From positions 62,001 to 126,000 of the forward strand of contig JACPYX010000008.1 of the NCBI GenBank assembly GCA_016195815.1: a DNA stretch of 64,000 bases, given 5' to 3'. Position 1 is the stretch's first letter, and every line of letters begins with the position of its first letter. The stretch comes from Chloroflexota bacterium. Lineage in GTDB: Bacteria; Chloroflexota; Anaerolineae; Anaerolineales; Villigracilaceae. The position numbers and the translations under genes are program-made. Shown one piece after another: positions 3,078-43,854 of the stretch. Under the pieces are notes generated by a model, which saw only the letters and a list, made by a program, of their open reading frames with translations, ran no database searches and was not told the origin of the DNA.

Positions 3078-4256
3078 ATGCAGGAAATAGCAGGTACGCA
3101 GTATCTCTCCAAACGCGTGGCGGGACTCAAGCCGTCGGGCATCCGCAAATTCTTCGACATCGCCGCGACGATGAAAGATGTGATCTCGCTCGGCATCGGC
3201 GAACCGGACTTCACAACGCCCAAGCCGATCCTCGAGGCGGGCATTCAAAGCCTGCAACGCGGCGAAACGCATTACACATCGAACTCCGGCAAGATGGAAT
3301 TGCGCCAGGGCATCGCGCAGAATATCGAAAAGTTGTACAGCGTGAAATACGATCCGGTCAATGAGATCATTGCCACCGTCGGCGTATCTGAAGCGTTGTA
3401 TTTAACCTTCACGGCCATTCTCGACCCCGGCGATGAGGTCATCATCCCAACGCCATGCTTCGTTTCGTATCAGGCCGAGGTCATTTTGGCGGGCGGCGTT
3501 GCGGTGGAAGTGCCAAGCCGGCTTGAAAACAATTTCCAACTCGACCCGGACGACATTCGCAAAGCCATCACCCCGCGCACAAAATGTATCTTTATCGGTT
3601 ACCCGTCCAACCCAACCGGAGCAGTGGCCGAACGAAATATATTGGTTGAGATCGCCCGAATGGCGGAAGAGCATGATTTGATCGTGGTATCAGACGAAAT
3701 CTATGACCGCCTTGTGTACGGTTTTGAACATGTCTGCTTTCCCTCTTTGAGCGAAAGCATCAAGCGCCGCACCGTTTTGCTGGGCGGATTCTCAAAAGAT
3801 TACGCCATGACCGGCTGGCGTATCGGCTACGCGGCCGGGCCTTCGGACATCATCAAGGGTCTGGTGCGCATCCATCAATACACGATCATGTCCGCGCCGA
3901 CCACCGCGCAGGACGCGGCAATTGAAGCGTTGAAATCAGGCGAACCTTATATCAAGGAAATGGTGACGGAATATGACCGCCGCCGAAAACTTCTCGTCAG
4001 CGGACTCAACCGCTTCGGCCTCCAGACCTTTGAACCGCGCGGCGCGTTCTACGCCTTTCCCAATATCCGCGCCTCCGGCATGGACGATGAAACCTTTTGC
4101 CAGAAATTATTGGAGGAGGAACACGTGGCAGTCGTGCCGGGCAATTCGTTCGGTCCCGGCGGCGAAGGTTTTGTGCGCGCATGTTATGCCACCAGCTACG
4201 AACAAATCGAAGAAGCCCTGCGCCGCATGGAGAAGTTCATGAGCAGGCACGGATAG
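3078..4256 (+). CDS. Class I/II PLP-dependent aminotransferase
   Basis: The 392-residue protein is a fold-type I aminotransferase of the aspartate/aromatic amino acid group. Landmarks are SLGIGEPDFTTP near the N-terminus, YPSNPTGAV with the PLP-ring Asn, VSDEIYDRLVYG, the PLP lysine in GGFSKDYAMTGWRIGY, and the C-terminal arginine in FVRACYATSYEQIEEAL that binds the substrate carboxylate. It would transfer an amino group between an amino acid and 2-oxoglutarate in the cytosol. Members of this branch are often annotated as aspartate or aromatic aminotransferases, and I cannot choose between them. ACGGAGG lies just upstream of the ATG. The stop is followed by a bidirectional terminator. Confidence 0.92.
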   Translation: MQEIAGTQYLSKRVAGLKPSGIRKFFDIAATMKDVISLGIGEPDFTTPKPILEAGIQSLQRGETHYTSNSGKMELRQGIAQNIEKLYSVKYDPVNEIIATVGVSEALYLTFTAILDPGDEVIIPTPCFVSYQAEVILAGGVAVEVPSRLENNFQLDPDDIRKAITPRTKCIFIGYPSNPTGAVAERNILVEIARMAEEHDLIVVSDEIYDRLVYGFEHVCFPSLSESIKRRTVLLGGFSKDYAMTGWRIGYAAGPSDIIKGLVRIHQYTIMSAPTTAQDAAIEALKSGEPYIKEMVTEYDRRRKLLVSGLNRFGLQTFEPRGAFYAFPNIRASGMDDETFCQKLLEEEHVAVVPGNSFGPGGEGFVRACYATSYEQIEEALRRMEKFMSRHG

Positions 4257-12166: not shown

Positions 12167-12320
12167 TCAAACCAAAACGGAACGGCGTCCCGCCCTCCGC
12201 CGTCCCATCCGTTTTATCCGTGAATCCGTTACAAAGTCCGTTTACAACTTAGCGAACCTCGATACCACCTTCGCCGCCTGCCCCCGACTGGGGAGGGTGA
12301 ATGGGGCGGTCCATCACGCC
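12167..12320. repeat. Direct repeat copy 1: decayed duplicate of the glyA-gcvT 3' end
   Basis: The segment matches 13067-13199. Fifty-two bases (12199-12250) are identical to 13097-13148, and the match runs on through a degenerate version of the last codons of the SHMT-GcvT gene up to the shared CCATCACGCC. On the minus strand it would read GVMDRP and then drift to IHPPQSGAGG, because about 21 bases are inserted. The two copies frame the MNT-HEPN cassette. Confidence 0.8.
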
Positions 12321-12697
12321 GCGCTCAATTTCTGTTTTATAAATTTCCGCACAGTGCCAGCTGCTGCATAAGCAGACTTGGCATCTTCCTTTTCTGCGGT
12401 TTCACCAGGATAACGCACACGCACTGAAAACCGCTCCATTGTCACCAGATCGGCACGCAGCATTTCAAAACTGCTGTCTATTTCTTCACACAAGAGCATT
12501 AACTCAATGAGATTATGAATTTTGGGGATATATTTTTCGTTTTCCTGCAAAACTGCTTTGAGATATTTCTCGGCGCATTGCTGACAGTGAAAACAAACTG
12601 CATCATAGTTGGGTGAGGTGCGTGCCCGTAACTCGCGACCTGCTGTCGCGAAATCACCTTCCGCTTTATCAACCCACTCAATTGTTGCGGAATTCAT
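12314..12697 (-). CDS. HEPN domain protein (toxin of an MNT-HEPN pair)
   Basis: The 127-residue all-helical HEPN protein begins with the family-typical EWVDKAEGDFATAGREL and contains FHCQQCAEKYLKAVL. HEPN partners of minimal nucleotidyltransferases act as toxins, often RNases, in two-gene toxin-antitoxin systems. The classic RX4-6H RNase motif is not visible. RVRYPG occupies the equivalent region, as in many MNT-linked HEPNs. The start overlaps the end of the MNT gene by 20 bases, a typical coupled arrangement. Its stop lies inside the duplicated gcvT end. Confidence 0.88.
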   Translation of the reverse strand: MNSATIEWVDKAEGDFATAGRELRARTSPNYDAVCFHCQQCAEKYLKAVLQENEKYIPKIHNLIELMLLCEEIDSSFEMLRADLVTMERFSVRVRYPGETAEKEDAKSAYAAAGTVRKFIKQKLSAA

Positions 12698-13037
12698 AGA
12701 TAACCTTTCCCTCCTTGAGGACCTCTCGCAAAAAGAAGTCGCCCATTTTCACGCGTTTCGCCAGATATTTTGGCGTGTGGACAATTAAGTCCAACCCAAA
12801 TCTGTATTCTATCTGCTGGCAGATTTGAATAGCTTGCTGTGTGTCTCTTAGTTTCGTGTTCATCACGACCAACATATCCACGTCACTTTCAGGGCGTGGA
12901 TTTCCGCGCGCATACGAGCCGAACAAAATAATTTTCTGCGGCTTGAATTTTTCCACAATCTGCTTGACCACCTGATTGATGGCTCTTTGTGGAATACGCT
13001 TGCGTTTGTCAATCGTTGGTACATTTACAGTGACCAT
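12678..13037 (-). CDS. Minimal nucleotidyltransferase (MNT, antitoxin-like)
   Basis: The 119-residue DNA polymerase beta-superfamily nucleotidyltransferase has the motif GSYARGNPRPESDVDMLVV (GSX10DXD), which holds two metal ions. In characterised MNT-HEPN pairs this partner neutralises the HEPN toxin by AMPylating or otherwise modifying it. Start MVTVNVPTIDKRKRI at 13037 is chosen. The frame runs further upstream, but that part crosses the repeat and is not protein-like. It is first in a two-gene operon with the HEPN gene, inserted directly downstream of the SHMT-GcvT gene on the same strand. Confidence 0.88.
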   Translation of the reverse strand: MVTVNVPTIDKRKRIPQRAINQVVKQIVEKFKPQKIILFGSYARGNPRPESDVDMLVVMNTKLRDTQQAIQICQQIEYRFGLDLIVHTPKYLAKRVKMGDFFLREVLKEGKVIYEFRNN

Positions 13038-13066
13038 CTTGAAGTAATTATACAGCCGCTTTCCAT

Positions 13067-13199
13067 TCAAACAAAACGAGACGGCGTCCCACCCACGCCG
13101 TCCCATCCGTTTTATCCGTGAATCCGTTACAAAGTCCGTTTACAACTTTGCAAACCTGCTCACCACCTTCGCCGCTGTGGCGGGGCGATCCATCACGCC
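13067..13199. repeat. Direct repeat copy 2: true glyA-gcvT 3' end and downstream hairpin
   Basis: This partner of 12167-12320 contains the genuine last 20 codons of the SHMT-GcvT fusion and the downstream flank. The flank carries a perfect hairpin, GACGGCGT with loop CCCACCC (13080-13102), that could end the fusion transcript. The core ATCCGTTTTATCCGTGAATC recurs in diverged form at 21301-21347. Confidence 0.8.
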
Positions 13200-16100
13200 A
13201 CCTTGATGGATTAGGATCGGCGTGCCTTCCTTGATGTAAGCATTTTCCAAATACGCCTGACCGGTAATGAATCTCTGTCCATCAATGGCACAGGAGGTGA
13301 CGAAGCCAATGCGTTCGCCGTTGGCATTCATCACAGGGTCGCCGTTATGCGCCATGCGGACGCGCTGCTCATCGAACGTAAAGCGGATGACCACGCCTTT
13401 GCGCTCTTTCTCGCGCGCTACATAAGCGTCACGACCAATGAACCACGGCTTGTACGGTTTCACGTACGAACCGAATCCGCCTTCAGCCACGCCGAGATCG
13501 CGTCCGTCAAACTTGCCCGAGCCGAGTCCCATTTCGTGACCGTACAACGGCAGACCCGCTTCGGTACGCAACGAGTCGCGCGCACCCAAACCGATCGCTT
13601 TGACACCAAACTGCTCGCCCGCTTTCAACACTGCATTCCAAAAGTCCACGGCGCGTTCGGGGTGGACGAACAATTCAAACGCCATTTTCTCGCCGGTATA
13701 ACCCGTGCGCGAAACGATCAAGTCAAACCCACCGACCACGGCATCGCACAACTCAGTCCGCTTCAACTTCATGATGCGCGCGCGGGTCTCGCTATCCACG
13801 CCCATCGCCAGCAGCGTGTCGCGGCTCTTCGGTCCTTGCAGGGCAATATCCACTCGCATGGCTGAACCAGCTTTCGGGTCCCGTAAGTTGCGTATCTCCG
13901 CGTTATAACCATACGTCCGCGCCCACGGTCGTCCGTTGTCAATTTTCACTTTGCCATCGCGCACACTTTCCAACCACGTGCGATCCTTGTCATCGTTCGA
14001 CGCGTTCACGACCACGAGATAATTATCCCAGCCGCGGCGATAGATGAGCGTATCATCGATCACGTCCGCATCGGGCGTGAGGAAATGCGAATACAACGAC
14101 TCGCCCGGCAGCAACCCGCCGCAGTCATTGCCGCAGACCGTATCGAGGAACGACGCCGCATCCGCGCCGCGCACATCGTACACGCCCATGTGCGAAACAT
14201 CGAACAAGCCCGCCGCATTGCGCGTGGCAAGATGCTCCTCAAAAATACCCGTGTATTGCACCGGCATTTCCCAACCCGCAAATGGGACCATTCTGCCGCC
14301 GAGGTCGCGATGCGTTTGATTCAACGCCGTCTTTTTTAATTCGCCCTCAACTTCATTCCAGACGAAAGGCGGCATCCCCAAAGGGGACGCTGCCGCCTCT
14401 TTCTTCGATTTGGGCTGGTCGCCAATAAACCAAGGTTTATCTTCGCTGACGGCTTTGCCTGCAACCGCCGCAACTTTGGCTTTCACTTCACTGACGAAGA
14501 AAGGTCCCGGCATCCGCTTCGCGCTGAAATCTTTCTTGCCATCCAAATTGAACGACATATATCCATCAGATAAATCTCTCAACCAAGTCGCTACAACATT
14601 TGCTTTCGCGGCCGGCACCGCCAATTGATAGAACGTATCGTCCACGTTCACCAACGTTCCTTTCACTTTGCCTCTTGGTGTGGAAATTTCTGTCGCCTGA
14701 CTCATCCCCACCTTGAGCGCAGATAAATCAGATGACACAGCATAATCCAACATCTGCCGCACGCGATCACCGCTCAACTCATACACAACTGCCGTCTTCG
14801 CCTTCGGCGCATCATCAATGTAATAGAAGTGTGGGTAACCATGCTGCGTCGGCTTGAAATCAATGCCCGCCGATTCAGATAACTTGCGAATCTTCAACTT
14901 GGCATCATTCAACACTTTGAAATCCAATTTTGCTCTGCGTTGTCGTCCCTTGCGGACGGTATCCACACTATGCGGCGCGCACGCGATCAACACATCCGCC
15001 ATAATATCCGCCAGCTGACGAGTCTTCTTCTCATCGAAGCCGCGCTGTGTGATCCACGGCGTGCCGAGACGAATGCCGCTCGGGTCGGCTGAATTCTTGT
15101 CACCGGGAATCGTATTGCGATTGACCACTACACCGACAATATCCAAAATGCGCGAAGCCTGATCACCGCTGAGCTTCGTGCCATCCTCACCGACCACGCT
15201 GGTGCAATCTACGTTTACTAAATGTGTATCCGTGCCGCCAAACGGGACGCGCAGTCCGCGTTTCTCGAATTGGTCAGCCATTGCTTTCGCGTTCTTGAGA
15301 GTCTGCGCCTGCAATTGCTTGAATTGTTTGGTTTGTGTGAGTTTGAAAGTCAAAGCCAGCGCCGCGAACACATTGACATGCGGTCCGCCCTGCTCACCGG
15401 GGAAGACGGCTTTATCGATCTTCTTCGCGATTGCCGCATCGGTCGTCAGCAACACTGCGCCGCGCGGGCCGTCGAGACTCTTGTGCGTTGTGGACATCAC
15501 GACATGGGCATGACCAATCGGCGAAGGCACCACACCTGCCGCCACGAGTCCGCCAATGTGCGAAATATCCGCGAGGAAATAGGCGCCCACTTCATCCGCG
15601 ATCTCGCGGAATTTCTTCCAATCGGGAATCCATGAATACGATGAATAGCCCGCGATCAATAGCTTGGGTTTGTTTTCCAATGCCAGTTTGCGGATCGCTT
15701 CGTAATCCAGGCGTTCGTTTTCATCAATCGTGTAATGTACGGCCTTGTAATATTTTCCGCTTCGATTTACCGATGAACCATGCGAGAGATGTCCACCGTG
15801 CAGGAGGTTCAGTCCCATCACGGTATCGCCGAGATTGAGCAGCGCCTGATAGACCGCATTGTTGGCGGGCGCACCCGACAAAGCTTGTACATTCACATAG
15901 ATTTGATCGGCGCTGATGCCGTTCGCGGCGAAAGTCTGCGCCGCGCGGCGACGAGCCAGCGCTTCAACTGCGTCCGCATACTCGACGCCTTTGTAATAGC
16001 GCGGATCACCGCTGCGGCGATAATGAGCAAGCCGCGCGGGGTAATCGAGAATCTCCTCCTCGCTCATCCAACGCGACTCTTCATCGGGATAGCCTTCCGC

Positions 16101-16271
16101 GTAGATATTCTGGAAAGCCGAAGCCAATGCTTCGCGCACGGCCATTGGTGCAGTTGATTCGGATGGGATTAAGATTAATTTGCGGTACTGCCGCTCGGCT
16201 TCCAATTGAGTCAATTCAAAAATGTCGGGGGCGAGGTCGGCGAGTTTGCCGCGGACGAGAAAGTCAGGCAT
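13140..16271 (-). CDS. Fused serine hydroxymethyltransferase / aminomethyltransferase (GlyA-GcvT)
   Basis: The protein has 1043 residues. Residues 1-445 are serine hydroxymethyltransferase (LIPSEST, PLP Lys264 in STTHKSLDGPRG, RLGTPWITQRG), which interconverts serine and glycine with tetrahydrofolate. Residues about 645-1043 are a full GcvT aminomethyltransferase of the glycine cleavage system (VPFAGWEMPVQY, FDVSHMG, DADVIDDTLIYR with the expected catalytic Asp, SRTGYTGE, KPWFIGRDAY). Residues about 490-575 look like a second, degenerate GcvT-type N-terminal half (YELSGDRVRQMLDYAVSSDL ... YQLAVPAAKANVVATWL) in which the catalytic DD is replaced by KG. The protein should channel one-carbon units between serine, glycine and folate in the cytosol. 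AAAGGAG precedes the ATG, and a strong promoter lies upstream. Confidence 0.93.
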   Translation of the reverse strand: MPDFLVRGKLADLAPDIFELTQLEAERQYRKLILIPSESTAPMAVREALASAFQNIYAEGYPDEESRWMSEEEILDYPARLAHYRRSGDPRYYKGVEYADAVEALARRRAAQTFAANGISADQIYVNVQALSGAPANNAVYQALLNLGDTVMGLNLLHGGHLSHGSSVNRSGKYYKAVHYTIDENERLDYEAIRKLALENKPKLLIAGYSSYSWIPDWKKFREIADEVGAYFLADISHIGGLVAAGVVPSPIGHAHVVMSTTHKSLDGPRGAVLLTTDAAIAKKIDKAVFPGEQGGPHVNVFAALALTFKLTQTKQFKQLQAQTLKNAKAMADQFEKRGLRVPFGGTDTHLVNVDCTSVVGEDGTKLSGDQASRILDIVGVVVNRNTIPGDKNSADPSGIRLGTPWITQRGFDEKKTRQLADIMADVLIACAPHSVDTVRKGRQRRAKLDFKVLNDAKLKIRKLSESAGIDFKPTQHGYPHFYYIDDAPKAKTAVVYELSGDRVRQMLDYAVSSDLSALKVGMSQATEISTPRGKVKGTLVNVDDTFYQLAVPAAKANVVATWLRDLSDGYMSFNLDGKKDFSAKRMPGPFFVSEVKAKVAAVAGKAVSEDKPWFIGDQPKSKKEAAASPLGMPPFVWNEVEGELKKTALNQTHRDLGGRMVPFAGWEMPVQYTGIFEEHLATRNAAGLFDVSHMGVYDVRGADAASFLDTVCGNDCGGLLPGESLYSHFLTPDADVIDDTLIYRRGWDNYLVVVNASNDDKDRTWLESVRDGKVKIDNGRPWARTYGYNAEIRNLRDPKAGSAMRVDIALQGPKSRDTLLAMGVDSETRARIMKLKRTELCDAVVGGFDLIVSRTGYTGEKMAFELFVHPERAVDFWNAVLKAGEQFGVKAIGLGARDSLRTEAGLPLYGHEMGLGSGKFDGRDLGVAEGGFGSYVKPYKPWFIGRDAYVAREKERKGVVIRFTFDEQRVRMAHNGDPVMNANGERIGFVTSCAIDGQRFITGQAYLENAYIKEGTPILIHQGGVMDRPATAAKVVSRFAKL

Positions 16272-16766: not shown

Positions 16767-18071
16767 ATGAATATCGGCAGCACCACACCAGTCTATGCAG
16801 TGGCAGAGAAGAATCTTATCCCCGTCAGCGGACATTTGCGCGCGATGCTTGATATTCCGCCCTCACGTATGTTCATCATCAACAAGTCGCTTAAAGTCTA
16901 TAAAGAAAAAAATCGGGACGCAAAAATTTTCGATGCTTCACAAGGTGACGGCGGCGCGTCCCTGCCCGGGGTGCCGAAAAATATCCTCGAGCGCGCGTTC
17001 CAGTTACAAGTTGAGCATGGAAGCGCTTACGATATGCCCTTCGGCACGGACGCCTATCGTAAGTCGGTCGTCGAGCAATATTGGAAACTGGATGCAGGTC
17101 TGGGGTGGGGCCCGAACAATGTTTTGGGAACTGCGGGCGGACGAGATGCGCTGGTCAAGGCTTATGGCGCGATGCTGGCTCTCGGGCATGGGCGTCAGGG
17201 CGATGTATTGATCGTCTCGCGCGTGCCGTGGATTTCATACAACTGGGGGCCGTATGGTGTTGGCGCGAACGTGATGTGGGCGCCGGGCGACCCCGCGCAA
17301 GGCTGGGCTTATTCTGAAGACGGCATCAAAGAATGCGTGGCGCTCGCTTCTAAATCCGGACGAAAAGCGGCGGGCCTCGTTATCACCAACCCAGACAACC
17401 CGACAGGCGCGACCACCTCCACCCAGAAGATGGTTTCGCTTGCCAAATCCGCGTTGGAGGCGGGTGTGGCCTTCGTGCTGTTCGATTGGATGTACCACTA
17501 TGTCACCGACGAACAGCCCAACGATTTGAATTCGTTCTTGAAATTATTCACACCCGAAGAACGAAAACGATTGATGTTCCTGGATGGCATCACAAAAAGC
17601 CTGGGCGGGTCGAACATCCGCAATTGTCATTTGATCGCGGATGAAAGCGTGATCAAGTTCATCGTGGCGCGCGCTTCGCATGGCATCATCCCGTCATTCT
17701 ATTCGCTGGCTGTGGCAATGGCCGCTTATGAAATGGGATACGCCGAAGCATCAAAGTCCATCGTCGAGCCGACCAACGCCAGCCGCAAAGTATTGAAGGG
17801 TCTGCTCGATGACAGCGGACTTCAATATATTCTCGGCAAAGGCTATTACGCGTTCATGAACGTCGGCGAGTTCATCAAAGCCAAAGGTCTGGCGGATAGT
17901 GAACCGCTTGGACAATATCTGGCCGAAGAACATGGTATCGCGATCGTTCCCGGTGCATTCTTCTCGCCATTCGGCAACGACTGGATTCGTTTTTCGTATG
18001 CCACTCCCGCCGAAAGAACCGAAGGTGCATTCAAGAGATTGATGGAAGGGTTGAATTCTTTCAAGCGTTAA
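16767..18071 (+). CDS. PLP-dependent aminotransferase, class I/II, function unassigned
   Basis: The 434-residue fold-type I PLP enzyme shows FDASQGDGGASLPGVP near the N-terminus, VITNPDNPTGATTS with the ring-binding Asn, FVLFDWMYHY with the conserved Asp, the PLP lysine in LDGITKSLGGSN, and a substrate-binding arginine in WIRFSYATPAERTEGAF. It belongs with the aspartate aminotransferase superfamily, but no known activity can be assigned. Start at 16767 follows ACAAGGAGAA. The gene sits behind a leader with a terminator, and the ligase-peptidase fusion follows on the same strand after a 274-base repeat-filled gap. Confidence 0.88.
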   Translation: MNIGSTTPVYAVAEKNLIPVSGHLRAMLDIPPSRMFIINKSLKVYKEKNRDAKIFDASQGDGGASLPGVPKNILERAFQLQVEHGSAYDMPFGTDAYRKSVVEQYWKLDAGLGWGPNNVLGTAGGRDALVKAYGAMLALGHGRQGDVLIVSRVPWISYNWGPYGVGANVMWAPGDPAQGWAYSEDGIKECVALASKSGRKAAGLVITNPDNPTGATTSTQKMVSLAKSALEAGVAFVLFDWMYHYVTDEQPNDLNSFLKLFTPEERKRLMFLDGITKSLGGSNIRNCHLIADESVIKFIVARASHGIIPSFYSLAVAMAAYEMGYAEASKSIVEPTNASRKVLKGLLDDSGLQYILGKGYYAFMNVGEFIKAKGLADSEPLGQYLAEEHGIAIVPGAFFSPFGNDWIRFSYATPAERTEGAFKRLMEGLNSFKR

Positions 18072-18073
18072 TT

Positions 18074-18298
18074 AACCGCGAAGCACGCGAAGTGCGCGAA
18101 GAAATAAAAAGAAATCTCCACCGTAAAAATGTCATTGCGAGGCGGTTTGTGCCGAAGCAATCTTCTATTTTCGAGATATTTCAACTCAAAGGAGATTGCC
18201 GCGCCGCCAAAGAGCAAGAACGGCGGCTCGCAACGACATCAATTTATGAGATGTACGGTAGAGAGGAAAAGAAAAGAATCTTTGCAGTCTTCGCGGTT
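18074..18298. repeat. Nested palindromic repeat: ACCGCGAAG element split by a GTCATTGCGAG element
   Basis: The outer arms AACCGCGAAG (18074-18083) and CTTCGCGGTT (18289-18298) enclose CACGAAG-like repeats. Inside them sits a complete GTCATTGCGAG palindrome (18131-18237). The outer element is of the same type as 59474-59534. Confidence 0.6.
18131..18237. repeat. Palindromic dispersed repeat, GTCATTGCGAG type (copy C)
   Basis: GTCATTGCGAG at the left is matched by CTCGCAACGAC at the right. The inner arms are GAAGCAATCTTC and GGAGATTGC. It is the longest of the three copies in this window. Confidence 0.7.
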
Positions 18299-18345
18299 CG
18301 TCGTATTTATCTTCGTTTATCTTTGTTCATCTCTGGTGAAAACTT

Positions 18346-21159
18346 ATGCCCTACGACCCCCAACAATTTGCAGAAAAATACAAACTGGCCGTCAAGTCCG
18401 CGCAGGAGCAAAAGCCTGACGGCGGATTGAACGGTTTCGAACTCGAATGGAATTTGCTCGATGAGCAATTCCGTCCATTGCTCACGGTGGGAACCGGCCC
18501 CGCGCAGCAATCCTTCGTGGATCATCTGCGGGCAAACTGTCTTCCGGCCTGGCTGGCAAACTTCTCGCAACTCGAAGTCTTCCACTGGATGGTCGAGTTT
18601 GCGACGCGCCCGTACTTTAATGCGCGCGGTGCGGCGTATGAAGCGCGCCTGATGGAAGCCGTGTTGATGAACGCGCTTGCCCGCGCAGGCGCGGAGTTTG
18701 GCCAGCGGCTTTTCTATTGGCATGGCAATTTAATTTTCTTAACTGCTATCAATCACGATTCAATTCCCGGCAACTGGGCGATTGCCAAGCGCCGTTACCT
18801 CGAACGCTGTGTGGATTTATACGGCGACACACTTGCAACCGCAGGCATTCATGTCAACATGTCATTGCCTGAGCCGCTTCTGGCCTGGGACTTCATGCAC
18901 CTGCCCGCGTCCGAACGCGGCGACAAACATCTCGACGATTACAAGTCTGAGTTCTACATTACCTCTGCGCGGTTGTTGCGCGCATTTGCCAGCTTGTTTA
19001 TCGCCACATCGGCCAGCACCCCGCTTCAGGCGCAGGTTCGAGGCGGACGGCCCGCCGTCGTCATCACCGAAAATGATTCGGTCCGCAATTTAACTTTCCC
19101 GAATCCCGCCGAAGTTGACCTGCCCGACCTGTATCGCTCATACAACGATTATTTGCAAATCTCCTACGACCTCGTTCGACGCGGCGTGCGCTTCGGCAAC
19201 AACAACTGGACGCCGGTGCGCGCCCGATCTTTTGCCGAACCTGTCGAGCGGCTCATTTCAACGACCAGTGACCAGCTGGGCGATCTTTACACGCGCGGAC
19301 TTTATTCAATTGGCGAGGCCGCACCCGCTGAAGAAATGGCGCGGCAGATCGAAAAACAAAATTTGATGGCGCGCATTAATTTGCCGATGGGACGCGTCGA
19401 GGTCCGCACCGACGACGGCGGCAATCCGCTGGAAGTTGACATCGCCAATCTGACGCTCAAGAATCTTTTACTTCTGCGCTTCTACGCCGACTCGAAATTT
19501 GCGCGCTCGTTCCGGTACGACCGCGAAGATATTCCACGTGCGCGTGCCAACGAACGACTGGCCGCGCAGCATGGCCTGCGCGCCGAAATAGAGAATCCCT
19601 TTACGGCGAAGCCGATGAAGATGCGCGAATTTCTCAAGTGGACGTTGAAGGAACTCAAGCCGCTGGCCGAGGCGCTCGGTCAATGGGACGATCTGACTCC
19701 GCTCGTCGAAATGTCTGAAGGCGGGCCGAACACCGCAGAAAAAATCCGCTCACGTTTGCAAGTTGAACTGGGTGCGAACGATGAAGCACCGATCACTGTA
19801 TTGCGCGAGATGGCTTACGAACGCGAAGTTCAAGTCCGCGCAGATGTGGAAAAGATCGCCGCCAAATATGCGGGACTGAACGGCGACTCGGAAAAGTTGG
19901 GCGAACTTCTTCAACACGCCCGCGAAGAAGCGCGCGAACATCCTGAACTTCCGATTCGCTTCCGGCCCTCGAGCGGAATCGTGATCGAGACGAATTATCC
20001 AAACAAGACGGCTGAGATTCTCGACCTCGCCCAACATTTAATCCGCATCCCATCTGTGACTGCCAGTCCCAACGAACGGCTTGACGAAGTCCACCGCGCC
20101 GGAACGTTCATCCATGATTATTTGCGCGGCAACGGCTTCGAGCCAAAATATTTTGACGGAAAATATCCGGCGGTGTTTGCTCAATTCCCATCTCCCGTTG
20201 GGAGAGAGAACAGGGGTGATGGAGAAGTCCTCCTCACCGGACATTTTGACGTGGTCGAGCCCGAGCCGGATGATTCGCAATTCACCCCGAAGATCGAAGG
20301 CGATTATCTTTGGGGCCGCGGCGCGGCAGATATGAAAACCGTTGTCGCGACGTACCTGGTTTGGATGAAAGATATATTGAAAGCGGGAAAACCATTCCCG
20401 AATATTTCATTGCTTCTGGTTGGCAACGAAGAAAACGGAGAAGCCGAAGCATGGGGCACGCCGCATGTTTTAAAAGAACTGGGCTTGAAACCATCCTTGT
20501 TTATCGCCGGCGAACGGACGGGAGAAAAAGGCAGTGAACTCTTCGGCGAAATCTGCATCGAGAATCGCGGTGTCATGCGCTTTGATGTGATCGCGCGCGG
20601 AGCGAAAGGTCACAGTGGTGTGGCGGGCGCTGGCGACTTGAGCGAAAAGCTTATCAGCGCTCGCAGTGCAATGAATGAAATTTTTGCAAAGCATCTCACT
20701 TTGAACTCTGCGGATGGCTGGCAATCGCAGGCAAAATTCCCGTTCATCAACGTTGGCACGACGGGTGTATATAATGTTACAGCCGCGCAGGGAATCCTCG
20801 GCGTGGAAATCCGTCCGATCCCGCAGGATGATGTTGACGGTCTAAAGTTGAAGGTCGAAAGTTACTGCGCGGAAAATGGATTGGAGGCGAAATTTTCCGT
20901 GATGGAAAACGGCGTGGCTTGCGACGCGAATAATCCGGCGTTGAAAGCGCTGATCGAATCGGTGAAGCAGGCATCAAACTCTGAGCCGCGCATCGGGAAA
21001 AAACTTCCCGGCACGAGCGCCAGATTCGCACCGGGCGGCCAGGCCGTTGTGTGGGGGCAATCCGGTCTGGGGCCACACGCAAAGGATGAACGACATTTTA
21101 TTCCAAGCATTGAGCCATATTACAAATCACTGGTTGAACTGGCGAAGTTGTGGAAATAA
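18346..21159 (+). CDS. Fusion of a glutamate-cysteine ligase-like domain and an M20 metallopeptidase
   Basis: The protein has 937 residues. Residues 1 to about 450 resemble the GCS2/glutamate-cysteine ligase superfamily: NGFELEWNLLD (acidic metal-binding residues), AGIHVNMSLPEP, and GRVEVRTDDGGNPLEVD. This superfamily uses ATP to join a gamma- or alpha-carboxylate to an amine. Residues about 560-937 are an M20 (DapE/ArgE/CPG2) di-zinc hydrolase: LTGHFDVVEPEP, YLWGRGAADMKT, VGNEENGEAEAWG, RGAKGHSG and PHAKDERHF. One chain thus holds an amide-forming and an amide-cleaving unit. An in-frame repeat-like insert (FPSPVGRENRGDGE, residues about 614-627) lies just before the first zinc ligand. The start has only a weak ribosome binding site. 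Its pathway is unknown; a thiol or amino-protecting metabolite is possible. Confidence 0.82.
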   Translation: MPYDPQQFAEKYKLAVKSAQEQKPDGGLNGFELEWNLLDEQFRPLLTVGTGPAQQSFVDHLRANCLPAWLANFSQLEVFHWMVEFATRPYFNARGAAYEARLMEAVLMNALARAGAEFGQRLFYWHGNLIFLTAINHDSIPGNWAIAKRRYLERCVDLYGDTLATAGIHVNMSLPEPLLAWDFMHLPASERGDKHLDDYKSEFYITSARLLRAFASLFIATSASTPLQAQVRGGRPAVVITENDSVRNLTFPNPAEVDLPDLYRSYNDYLQISYDLVRRGVRFGNNNWTPVRARSFAEPVERLISTTSDQLGDLYTRGLYSIGEAAPAEEMARQIEKQNLMARINLPMGRVEVRTDDGGNPLEVDIANLTLKNLLLLRFYADSKFARSFRYDREDIPRARANERLAAQHGLRAEIENPFTAKPMKMREFLKWTLKELKPLAEALGQWDDLTPLVEMSEGGPNTAEKIRSRLQVELGANDEAPITVLREMAYEREVQVRADVEKIAAKYAGLNGDSEKLGELLQHAREEAREHPELPIRFRPSSGIVIETNYPNKTAEILDLAQHLIRIPSVTASPNERLDEVHRAGTFIHDYLRGNGFEPKYFDGKYPAVFAQFPSPVGRENRGDGEVLLTGHFDVVEPEPDDSQFTPKIEGDYLWGRGAADMKTVVATYLVWMKDILKAGKPFPNISLLLVGNEENGEAEAWGTPHVLKELGLKPSLFIAGERTGEKGSELFGEICIENRGVMRFDVIARGAKGHSGVAGAGDLSEKLISARSAMNEIFAKHLTLNSADGWQSQAKFPFINVGTTGVYNVTAAQGILGVEIRPIPQDDVDGLKLKVESYCAENGLEAKFSVMENGVACDANNPALKALIESVKQASNSEPRIGKKLPGTSARFAPGGQAVVWGQSGLGPHAKDERHFIPSIEPYYKSLVELAKLWK
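20187..20226. repeat. Dispersed repeat fragment translated within the M20 domain
   Basis: CCCATCTCCCGTTGGGAGAG followed by AACAGGGGTGATGGAG forms a small palindrome (TCTCCC/GGGAGA). It looks like an intergenic repeat that has become coding, read in frame as FPSPVGRENRGDGE. Confidence 0.5.
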
Positions 21160-21362: not shown

Positions 21363-21932
21363 ATGCCCACAGCCGTCCTCTCGGTCTACAATAAAACTGG
21401 CATCATTGACTTTGCCAAAGGTCTCGTCTCCCTCGGTTGGACTCTGCTTGCATCCGGCGGCACAGCCAAACTGTTAAAAGAAAACGGAATATCCGTTACC
21501 GAGGTTGCCGAATACACCAAGTCGCCTGAAATTCTTGGGGGCAGAGTCAAAACTTTGCACCCCGCAATTCATGGCGGCTTGCTCGCCCGCCCAACCGAAT
21601 CCGATCACAACGAATTGCTTGCGTTTGGCTGGGATTATATTGACCTCGCCGTCGTTAATCTATATCCATTTGAAAAAACGATTGCCAAGCCAGGCGTCAC
21701 CTATGCCGACGCCATCGAAAACATTGATATTGGCGGCGTGACTCTCATTCGCGCCGCGGCGAAAAATCACGAACGCGTCACTCTTGTTTGCGATCCCGCC
21801 GATTATGCCGAAATACTGTCCATGCTTCAACACGGCGGCGTTCCATTTGAGGCCAAAAAAGAACTGGCGGTCAAAGGCTTCAAATCCACTGCAAACTATG
21901 ACACAGCCATCTCCAAATATTTGGATGATTAA
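21363..21932 (+). CDS. purH: Stand-alone IMP cyclohydrolase (N-terminal half of PurH)
   Basis: The 189-residue protein corresponds to only the IMP cyclohydrolase domain of bifunctional PurH. It starts AVLSVYNKTGIIDFAKGL, has LLASGGTAKLLKENG, GGRVKTLHPAIHGGLLARP and LRAAAKNH-like IRAAAKNHERV, and ends ANYDTAISKYLDD where the AICAR formyltransferase domain would begin. It would close the ring of FAICAR to IMP, the last step of purine synthesis. No formyltransferase domain follows, because the next frame is unrelated, so that activity must be encoded elsewhere. AAGGAAC precedes the ATG. The symbol refers to the cyclohydrolase part only. Confidence 0.92.
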   Translation: MPTAVLSVYNKTGIIDFAKGLVSLGWTLLASGGTAKLLKENGISVTEVAEYTKSPEILGGRVKTLHPAIHGGLLARPTESDHNELLAFGWDYIDLAVVNLYPFEKTIAKPGVTYADAIENIDIGGVTLIRAAAKNHERVTLVCDPADYAEILSMLQHGGVPFEAKKELAVKGFKSTANYDTAISKYLDD

Positions 21933-41738: not shown

Positions 41739-41879
41739 GATGCCAATTATACATGCCGGAAATTTTAGGGGAAAGAAACGGCGCTTCGAGACCGCGCACG
41801 TCGCAAGGCAAGAAAAGAAGCGATAAAATCTCTGTGCATCTGCGGCCATCTCTGGTAAAACTGGATGCAGGAGTCAGCC

Positions 41880-43286
41880 ATGTCTAATCCCAATCCCGAT
41901 TTTGTAAACTTCCTGCACGCGCATCCCTCTTATCCCACCACGCATATTATTGACGATCTGCGCGCCACCGAATATGCGCGCCTCGATGTGGGCGGGCATA
42001 TTTACTTCGATTACACCGGCGGCGGACTTTACGCCGAAACCCAGGTGCGCCGCCATCACAAGTTGTTGAGCGAACATGTTTTTGGCAACCCGCATTCATC
42101 CAATCCATCATCCATCGCGGCCACGCAGCTCGTCGAACATGCGCGCGAATATGTGCTTAAGTTTTTCAATGCCAACCCCGCCGAATACGATGTGATCTTC
42201 ACGGGCAACGCCAGCGGCGCATTGAAACTGGTCGGCGAGTCTTATCCGTTTGCCAAGGGCGGGCATTATTTGTTGACTTTTGATAATCACAATTCGGTCA
42301 ATGGGATTCGGGAATTCGCGCACGCCCGCGGCGCAGAGGTGACTTATATTCCGGTCGTCCTGCCAGATATGCGCGTCGACGCTTCATCCCTCGACGGATA
42401 TTTTGCGCGCGCTCAAAAAGGCGGAGCCAACCTGTTTGCTTATCCTGCCCAATCGAACTTCTCATCAGTGCAGCATCCGCTCGACTGGATCGAAAAAGCC
42501 CACGCCGCGGGCTGGGACGTTTTACTCGACGCGGCCGCTTTTGCCCCGACCAATCAGCTTGACCTTTCAAAATTCAAGCCCGATTATGTGCCGCTTTCGT
42601 TTTATAAAATGTTTGGCTATCCAACCGGTATCGGTGCGTTGATCGCCCGCAGGGAAGCGCTGGCGAAATTGCATCGTCCGTGGTTCGCGGGCGGGACGAT
42701 CACCGTCGTATCTGTGCAGGGCGATAAATTTTATATGGCCGATGGTCACACCGCGTTTGAAGACGGCACGCCCGATTATCTTAATATCCCGGCCGTCGAG
42801 ATCGGACTCAAACATATTGAGTCAATTGGCTACGACGTGATCCATGAACGCGTGATTAGCCTCACCGGCTGGCTGTTGGATAATTTGACTCAAATGAAGC
42901 ACAGCACGAGCGGACCTCTGGTTCGCATTTATGGGCCGACCAACACCGAAGCGCGCGGCGGCGCGGTGACGGTCAACTTCTTCGATAAAGACGGCAAGGC
43001 CATTGACCATCGTTTTATAGAAAGCGAAGCCAACAAAGTCAACATCTCCCTGCGGACAGGCTGTTTCTGCAATCCCGGCGCGGGCGAGATCGCACTCGGA
43101 CTCTCACGCGTCGAGTTGGATGTGTGCTTCTCGCAACCCGGTCATGAACAGCGTTTGAGCGTTGATGACTTTCGTTTATGTATCAACGGCAAGTCCAGCG
43201 GTGCGGTGAGAATCTCCGTTGGCATGGTGACGAATTTCAATGATGTGCAGGCATTCTTGAGTTTTGCGAGAGGGTTGTTGAGTTGA
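41880..43286 (+). CDS. Class V aminotransferase fold protein (cysteine desulfurase/MOCOS-like)
   Basis: The 468-residue PLP protein is related to cysteine desulfurases and molybdenum cofactor sulfurases. DYTGGGLYAETQVRRHHKLL opens the fold, VLLDAAAFAPTNQLDLS carries the conserved Asp, LSFYKMFGYPTGIGALIAR carries the PLP lysine, and LRTGCFCNPGAGE contains the loop cysteine typical of MOCOS-type enzymes. It could supply persulfide sulfur to a cofactor. A mobA gene exists at 62.4 kb, but linkage is not shown. The start MSNPNPDFVNFL follows CAGGAG. The DinB gene follows 67 bases later. Confidence 0.85.
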   Translation: MSNPNPDFVNFLHAHPSYPTTHIIDDLRATEYARLDVGGHIYFDYTGGGLYAETQVRRHHKLLSEHVFGNPHSSNPSSIAATQLVEHAREYVLKFFNANPAEYDVIFTGNASGALKLVGESYPFAKGGHYLLTFDNHNSVNGIREFAHARGAEVTYIPVVLPDMRVDASSLDGYFARAQKGGANLFAYPAQSNFSSVQHPLDWIEKAHAAGWDVLLDAAAFAPTNQLDLSKFKPDYVPLSFYKMFGYPTGIGALIARREALAKLHRPWFAGGTITVVSVQGDKFYMADGHTAFEDGTPDYLNIPAVEIGLKHIESIGYDVIHERVISLTGWLLDNLTQMKHSTSGPLVRIYGPTNTEARGGAVTVNFFDKDGKAIDHRFIESEANKVNISLRTGCFCNPGAGEIALGLSRVELDVCFSQPGHEQRLSVDDFRLCINGKSSGAVRISVGMVTNFNDVQAFLSFARGLLS

Positions 43287-43353
43287 ACGGATAAACCCGC
43301 TCCAACATCAAACCCGGCATGACAACTTTTATCTGTCTCCAAGGAATCCCGCC

Positions 43354-43854
43354 ATGAACATTCAAGATATTCTTCTCATTTACGAATACAACTACTGGGC
43401 AAACAAACGCATCCTTGCTCAATGCAAAAATGTGACGCACGAACAATTTACTGCCCCGGCGGAATTTCCATACGGCGGTTTGCGCGGGACGATCGTCCAC
43501 ATTCTCGACGCCGAGTTCGGCTGGCGGATGTTCTTTAAAAACAATGATTGGTCCGCGCCGGAGTTGAAAGAAATAGAATTTCCAACGTTCGCTTTAGTCC
43601 AGGAACGTGCGGACAAGGAAGAAAAAGAAATGCGCGCCTATCTCGCCGTGTTACGCGATGAAGACATGAATGCCCACAAGCATTATCGAACAGAAAAAGG
43701 CGGGCCGCGTGACCGTATCTTGTGGCATTGTCTTTTGCATTTGGTCAATCACGGGACTCAGCATCGCAGTGAAGCTGCGGCGCTACTGACGCGTTTCGGC
43801 CAATCGCCGGGCGATTTGGATTTCACTATGTTTTTGAATGGATACAAACCATGA
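43354..43854 (+). CDS. DinB family protein
   Basis: The 166-residue four-helix bundle protein is of the DinB/YfiT superfamily. Metal-binding His candidates are in RGTIVHILDAEFGW and LLHLVNHGTQHRSEAAALL (His-X3-His-type pair). Many members are thiol-dependent S-transferases using bacillithiol or mycothiol, and others have no known activity. This is noteworthy only as a possible user of a low-molecular-weight thiol. CAAGGAATC precedes the ATG. Confidence 0.88.
   Translation: MNIQDILLIYEYNYWANKRILAQCKNVTHEQFTAPAEFPYGGLRGTIVHILDAEFGWRMFFKNNDWSAPELKEIEFPTFALVQERADKEEKEMRAYLAVLRDEDMNAHKHYRTEKGGPRDRILWHCLLHLVNHGTQHRSEAAALLTRFGQSPGDLDFTMFLNGYKP

Follow-up and report, generated by a model that had tools for sequence, protein, structure and literature searches.

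The window analysed here, a 64,000-nucleotide stretch of a Chloroflexota genome of the family Villigracilaceae (GenBank assembly GCA_016195815.1, contig JACPYX010000008.1, positions 62,001–126,000), encodes a protein in which a predicted carboxylate–amine ligase domain is fused to an M20-family hydrolase domain, preceded on the same strand by a gene for a class I/II pyridoxal phosphate (PLP)-dependent aminotransferase. We found that fusion and aminotransferase make up a module of three enzymes that is conserved in two phyla and whose active sites look intact, and we propose, with a probability of about 0.4, that the two genes would supply three activities acting in the order ligation, transamination and hydrolysis. 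The open-licence literature that we searched, at title and abstract level, contained no description of the fusion and no pathway built on it, in line with the first-pass annotation of this DNA, which knew of none; nor does any family model in the searched collections describe it.

Ligase-like and hydrolase domains on one conserved chain

The fusion gene is a single open frame of 937 residues at 18346–21159 (+) with no internal stop, and it is present once in the window's genome, where two further matches are short M20 matches only. An objection raised at the outset, that the gene might be two separate proteins, does not survive comparison with its relatives: among the best 80 of 116 relatives from a scan of named genomes, which we kept as loci (the 36 weaker relatives left out could differ), 74 align to 900 or more query residues in a single segment, and the six remaining ones are truncated at a contig edge. 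All 80 kept loci carry the fusion. Their hosts are mostly Anaerolineae or unplaced Chloroflexi, Geothrix (including several named species) and other Holophagaceae/Acidobacteria, together with one Aminicenantes and one Herpetosiphon-titled metagenome bin. Clean, near-full-length translations were obtained from 73 of the 80, and 41 were left after dereplication at 88% identity; with the window protein these gave an alignment of 42 rows, all of which retain the catalytic residues of both halves, the sole exception being position 357 of the ExRxxD motif described below. Fusion, conservation and retention of catalytic residues are direct results, as are the linkage and co-occurrence with the aminotransferase described below; the first-pass annotation had likewise reported key residues of both domains, and, position 357 aside, we saw no loss of catalytic residues in the aligned orthologues. 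Locus L021 additionally holds, upstream of its fusion gene (314–448), a second partial match to the fusion N terminus (residues 5–49, 69% identical).

The distribution of the fusion was surveyed in samples of 400 Chloroflexota and 297 Acidobacteriota genomes (697 in all). In Chloroflexota, the ligase domain occurs in 11/400 genomes, always inside the fusion and all in the window's family, of which 24 genomes were sampled (11 with the fusion and 13 without); the three other sampled genomes of the window's genus are all without it. A weak ligase match in G127 (E 6e-4), aligned at residues 347–462 only, is by eye an ordinary YbdK-type ligase and was not counted as a carrier. Among the Acidobacteriota, 32/297 genomes match the fusion profile at E 1e-20, 29 of them essentially at full length, the remaining matches being cut at a contig end (G516), split across two contigs (G542) or limited to the M20 part (G696). 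A tree of 48 rows recovered supported groups of 35 Chloroflexota rows (including the window), 4 Geothrix/Holophagaceae-type rows and 6 divergent Acidobacteriota rows, with the Chloroflexota rows L062 and L067 as a separate group whose placement is not settled; because several rows are long-branched, we draw no transfer history. Matches in 23 plasmid records included none covering 80% of the query, and the 15 matches listed involve the M20 half only. A PADLOC defence search returned no match for the fusion or the aminotransferase.

The ligase half is a distant relative of YbdK and glutamate–cysteine ligases

Sequence models barely recognized the N-terminal half. It gave no Pfam match at E 0.1 when the whole protein was scanned and reached PF04262 below threshold when scanned alone (E 0.087; 11.9 bits versus a cut-off of 27). 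PF04107 (GCS2, gathering score 21 bits) did not match the window protein; among four distant orthologues scanned with this model, L062 (23.4 bits) and L067 (22.6) passed, and L094 (13.4) and L085 (12.8) fell below the cut-off. Judged by these scores, the window protein is filed as a GCS2 relative, not as a member. A search of the PDB with the single ligase-half sequence gave no match up to E 10, and the 42-row profile, searched to the same limit, found only two PDB sequences, YbdK 1r8g (E 0.14) and 1tt4 (E 1.7), neither of which is significant by itself.

The folds of both halves are predictions. Modelled alone, the ligase half reached a predicted local distance difference test score (pLDDT) of 81.9 and a predicted template modelling score (pTM) of 0.87, and its best fold match was 1tt4 (Z 29.9, 3.2 Å, 326 residues aligned), followed by YbdK 1r8g (Z 29.1, 3.2 Å, 325), the E. 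coli glutamate–cysteine ligase 1va6 (Z 23.3, 3.5 Å, 380), the plant glutamate–cysteine ligase 2gwc (Z 22.1, 3.7 Å, 335), Dop and PafA (Z 15.4–19.8) and glutamine synthetases (about Z 14). In these structural alignments it is at most 19% identical to any known enzyme matched. It thus resembles the YbdK/GCS2 ligases (1r8g, 1tt4) in predicted fold (about 325 residues aligned at 3.2 Å) and in superfamily motifs, but differs from them in its low identity (19%), its scores under the PF04107 and PF04262 cut-offs, its length (475 modelled residues versus 352–354 resolved in the solved chains) and the added C-terminal M20 domain. The whole protein was modelled with lower scores (pLDDT 78.9, pTM 0.64); the linker between the halves, which contains a long helix (483–531), has a mean pairwise identity of 0.46 versus 0.73–0.78 for the three enzymes (aminotransferase, ligase and M20).

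The carboxylate–amine/ammonia ligase superfamily, which has the glutamine synthetase fold, is described in PMC2588565 by five feature groups, of which the ligase half shows four. The GhExE motif of core strand 1 corresponds to G30-F-E32-L-E34 on predicted strand 29–38, with G30, E32 and E34 present in 42/42 rows. A further feature group is represented by E77, one residue past predicted strand 74–76, and E84 on strand 82–86, both in 42/42 rows. The [HD]x[NH] motif of core strand 4 is H169-x-N171 on strand 168–172, both residues again in 42/42 rows. The arginine pair of core strand 5 and the preceding loop is probably to be sought among R292 and R294 on strand 291–295 and R282 before it, all invariant, in a region of local pLDDT about 62–70. 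For Ex[RK]x2D of core strand 6, the window has E352-x-R354-x-x-D357 at strand 348–356; E352, R354 and D356 are invariant in the 42 rows, at least 13 of which have E at position 357.

The M20 half resembles DapE and ArgE deacylases

The C-terminal half is recognized readily: PF01546 (Peptidase M20) scored 70.2 bits over residues 629–933 against a cut-off of 24.6, and the dimerisation-domain model PF07687 was narrowly missed (20.1 versus 21 bits). Together with the single frame and the predicted YbdK/glutamate–cysteine ligase-like fold, this match upholds the initial description of a glutamate–cysteine ligase-like domain fused to an M20 hydrolase. In the whole-protein model, residues from about 550 to 937 matched Desulfovibrio 2rb7 (Z 36.4, 2.9 Å, 342 aligned), DapE 5vo3 (Z 35.0, 3.9 Å, 361), ArgE 8uw6 (Z 33.7, 3.5 Å, 353) and also LysK 5xoy (Z 31.8). 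H633, D635, D662, E695, E696, E723 and H911 are kept in 42/42 rows; we take these to be the di-zinc-site residues, their roles being assigned by analogy with DapE. The M20 half is closest to the DapE/ArgE type, whose members strip acyl groups from amino acids, and it shares fold and metal-site residues with DapE/ArgE deacylases (5vo3, 7rsf) and 2rb7. It differs from them in its identity of about 19–27%, in its fusion to a ligase and in falling far under the NCBIfam equivalog cut-offs for DapE (PRK13009, 100.3 versus 284 bits; dapE_proteo, 65.4 versus 361.8 bits).

An aminotransferase is the near-constant partner

The partner aminotransferase scored 73.1 bits against PF00155 (cut-off 19.7), and its nearest solved structure by sequence is the aspartate aminotransferase 1j32 (75.7 bits). 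The open reading frame list begins the gene at TTG 16602; we placed the start at ATG 16767, which is preceded by AAGGAG and at which most orthologue matches begin. In a 35-row alignment K277, presumably the PLP lysine, and the PDNPTG motif are invariant, and across the named loci the protein is 61–91% identical in its best segment. Class I/II aminotransferases typically use α-amino and α-keto acids.

First called an orphan, this aminotransferase turned out to accompany the fusion almost everywhere. In 72/80 loci its gene, complete or truncated at a contig end, precedes the fusion gene in the same orientation; of the eight remaining loci, seven have less than 220 bp of upstream sequence or a truncated start, and in L021 the 1.8 kb upstream contain no aminotransferase. 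The intergenic gap in the 72 loci has a median of 112 bp and is below 200 bp in 54 (longest, 2,879 bp; window, 274 bp), and the linkage persists in loci with unrelated genes in between. In the phylum samples, with aminotransferase presence scored at E 1e-80, all 11 fusion genomes of the Chloroflexota also have the aminotransferase, and the 32 Acidobacteriota genomes with a fusion-profile match are the same 32 that have it. Over all 697 genomes, 43 have both (including G696, with the M20 part only), 2 have only the aminotransferase, none has only the fusion and 652 have neither (Fisher p 1e-66, a value that ignores shared ancestry). Pairwise identities in 35 shared rows correlate at 0.93 (aminotransferase–ligase), 0.92 (aminotransferase–M20) and 0.89 (ligase–M20), and at 0.83, 0.83 and 0.72 when restricted to the main group's Chloroflexota rows; because shared ancestry alone yields high correlations, these values are supporting evidence only.

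In L118 (genome G634), a frame open throughout suggested an aminotransferase–ligase–M20 three-domain fusion; we rejected it, as the aminotransferase end is readable in another frame, which a small frameshift of natural or assembly origin explains more simply. In L117, a long frame crosses the aminotransferase region out of the aminotransferase's frame. In the Chloroflexota genome G072, the aminotransferase gene stands in divergent orientation beside a gene resembling imidazolonepropionase by eye. The window's other class I/II aminotransferase (3078–4253; 499.9 bits to PRK07682, under the model cut-off of 620) belongs elsewhere.

A proposed ligate–transaminate–hydrolyse module

Ligases of the glutamine synthetase/glutamate–cysteine ligase fold phosphorylate a carboxylate, usually the γ-carboxylate of glutamate, and then join it to an amine (PMC2588565). 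By analogy, the ligase domain would use ATP to activate a carboxylate, perhaps the glutamate γ-carboxylate, and join it to the amino group of a substrate; the partner aminotransferase would then interconvert an α-keto and an α-amino group on the capped molecule, which without its cap might cyclise or be consumed by other enzymes; and the M20 domain would finally hydrolyse the cap, releasing the product and the capping acid. Fusing the enzymes for the first and third steps would keep the intermediate local. The protect/deprotect cycle put forward in the first-pass annotation is a sensible reading. Capping, transamination and uncapping is the simplest reading because of the near-constant linkage with the aminotransferase and the chemistries of the three families; the substrates, the direction of the steps and a common target bond for the two domains belong to the proposal. 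It is possible, though rather doubtful, that the module constitutes an undescribed amino-acid pathway of Chloroflexota and Acidobacteriota, in which a single bifunctional enzyme adds a free small-molecule cap before, and removes it after, the step of a dedicated transaminase, leading to a diamino acid or related compound new to these bacteria. If the cap–transaminate–uncap reading is right, the module would be another way, besides LysW and acyl-CoA acylation, to protect an amine during transamination. As several named Geothrix species carry the module, the compound is open to ordinary genetics and metabolomics.

Several observations weigh against this proposal. The depupylase Dop, a hydrolase, is among the fold matches of the ligase half, so that ligation itself is only inferred. 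Gaps exceed 200 bp in 18 of the 72 loci, which makes co-transcription uncertain; in L115, aminotransferase and fusion lie about 6 kb apart. The co-occurrence counts are not independent across lineages, and the Chloroflexota genomes G072 and G232 have the aminotransferase without the fusion, so that the enzyme may also serve an independent role. No ligase domain was found in the G696 assembly, in which the aminotransferase, whose start is only some 200 bp away from the end of its contig, is followed by a stand-alone M20 orthologue (L121, 7503–10005 (−), outside the 80 loci). Finally, no conserved substrate-supplying gene was found adjoining the pair among the minority of neighbours that we annotated.

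The main rival is that the ligase makes a stable γ-glutamyl or similar conjugate serving as an osmolyte, reserve or thiol, which the M20 domain degrades when it is unneeded, with the aminotransferase supplying or removing the amino acid part. Conservation of both active sites and the aminotransferase linkage are also compatible with such a cycle, and trypanothione synthetase–amidase, a one-chain synthetase and hydrolase for the same amide (PMC2784880), is a precedent; but opposed activities on one chain need a switch, and the few conserved neighbours that we annotated, a minority of all neighbours, are neither transporters nor thiol enzymes. We regard it as fairly unlikely taken singly, although the data do not decide between the two accounts. 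A slimmer prospect is acyl transfer, in which the M20 domain would free an amine from an N-acyl precursor for the ligase to join to another carboxylate, like a hydrolase-fed amidotransferase: a hydrolase and a ligase, both conserved, do share one chain, but the linker is its least conserved part, nothing observed suggests a channel, and the aminotransferase is left unexplained. We likewise give little credence to a γ-glutamyl-cysteine or other thiol pathway. YbdK and glutamate–cysteine ligases are the nearest folds, but at an identity of 19% or less, which is too distant to infer glutamate and cysteine as substrates, and the conserved neighbours annotated include no thiol gene. At 41865–43851 (+), a class-V aminotransferase gene is followed by a DinB-family gene (43354–43851), probably the one once offered as a thiol link; it is separated from the fusion by about 22 kb, and we saw nothing that connects the two.

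A DapE-like M20 domain, a class I/II aminotransferase and a compatible order of chemistry could also mean that the module replaces the acyl steps of diaminopimelate/lysine synthesis, with the ligase in place of DapD, the aminotransferase of DapC and the M20 domain of DapE. We searched 32 genomes for DapL (TIGR03540 and NF006756), Ddh (TIGR01921) and DapD (PF14805), and 27 genomes for LysW (TIGR01206). In line with a replacement, the 24 genomes of the window's family gave no DapL over the cut-off, no Ddh and no PF14805, and three of the 11 carriers among them (G005, G112 and G290) no LysW. Against it, the DapD domain is over the cut-off in all six Geothrix carriers tested, the Desulfolinea genome G406 has LysW and a DapL-like gene just below the cut-off (488 versus 507 bits), and carriers and non-carriers of the window's family look alike: the nearest DapL-like gene (280–296 bits) is the same in the 13 non-carriers as in the 11 carriers, and LysW is found in 8/11 carriers, including the window's genome, versus 7/13 non-carriers, the other six being without it. 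Ddh was found in none of the 32 genomes. For these reasons the module is very improbable as a lysine route, a rejection that rests on the DapL, Ddh, DapD and LysW results, DapH-type acetyltransferases not having been searched for. The Aminicenantes carrier G407 counts the other way, with no DapL over the cut-off and no Ddh, PF14805 or LysW found, under the same limit for DapH-type enzymes. LysW was not found in the Geothrix carrier G400 either, and in the window's genome it sits on a different contig from the module.

Relation to known systems

The LysW pathway of lysine and arginine synthesis follows a logic of capping, transamination and M20-type release, using a carrier protein and an ATP-grasp ligase. 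The M20 half here matches the fold of LysK 5xoy; unlike that pathway, the aminotransferase–fusion module contains no carrier gene. By this analogy, the proposed module would be a small-molecule counterpart of LysW and of the acetyl- or succinyl-protected amino-acid routes. There is already a precedent, in other folds, for uniting a synthetase with a hydrolase in a single chain: glutathionylspermidine/trypanothione synthetase–amidase combines ATP-grasp and CHAP cysteine-amidase folds, unlike the halves of the window protein, which match glutamine synthetase/glutamate–cysteine ligase-fold and M20-fold structures, and we know of no aminotransferase partner for the trypanothione enzyme. The shared feature is an amide synthetase and an amide hydrolase in a single protein (PMC2784880).

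Gene neighbourhood and other features of the window

By eye, the genes between aminotransferase and fusion include lipoprotein-like, methylase-like and HIT-like genes and small antisense pairs; because this content differs by genome, the pair has no common third member. In L016, L019, L031, L041, L052 and L054 this position is occupied by related sequence of about 800 bp that contains small antisense frames. The gap next to the window's fusion gene holds an inverted-repeat-like sequence (18133–18162 (+)), which the pattern used found once in the window. Neighbours conserved within lineages are a phosphodiesterase, APS kinase and PHP set and a histidine phosphatase, MgsA-type ATPase and Smr set, which suggest no substrate. 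The first of these sets lies downstream of the fusion in a group of divergent Acidobacteriota, as annotated in L112 (6735–9874), and the frame sizes downstream of the fusion in L113 and L119 are similar to those of L112. Rfam at gathering thresholds found no riboswitch in nine loci, its sole match being one tRNA in L062, and promoter/terminator and tandem-repeat scans were uninformative.

Table 1 Positions of the fusion gene, its domains and the partner gene in the window
Feature	Coordinates	Strand	Basis
Ligase–M20 fusion, 937 aa	18346..21159 (stop codon included)	+	Open reading frame, orthologue alignment
Ligase domain, residues 1–475, predicted glutamine synthetase/glutamate–cysteine ligase fold	18346..19770	+	Structure model, motifs
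Variable helical linker, residues 476–550	19771..19995	+	Identity comparison, model
M20 hydrolase domain, residues 551–937, DapE/ArgE-like	19996..21156	+	PF01546, fold matches
Partner aminotransferase (class I/II, PLP-dependent), 434 aa	16767..18071	+	PF00155, alignment, reading of the start region

Downstream of the fusion, 21363–21932 (+) encodes a short PurH of 189 residues, which holds the MGS domain but matches the AICARFT/IMPCHase model over its first 58 positions only, after which a stop codon and about 135 bp precede the next gene. On the opposite strand, a 1,043-residue frame (13140–16271 (−)) joins serine hydroxymethyltransferase to the aminomethyltransferase GcvT, and 12317–13106 (−) encodes a HEPN protein and nucleotidyltransferase pair, which we take to be of the kind found in HEPN–MNT toxin–antitoxin systems. 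Outside the window, locus L128 of the Chloroflexota genome G072 carries a serpin gene (17556–18830 (+), 7.5e-113).

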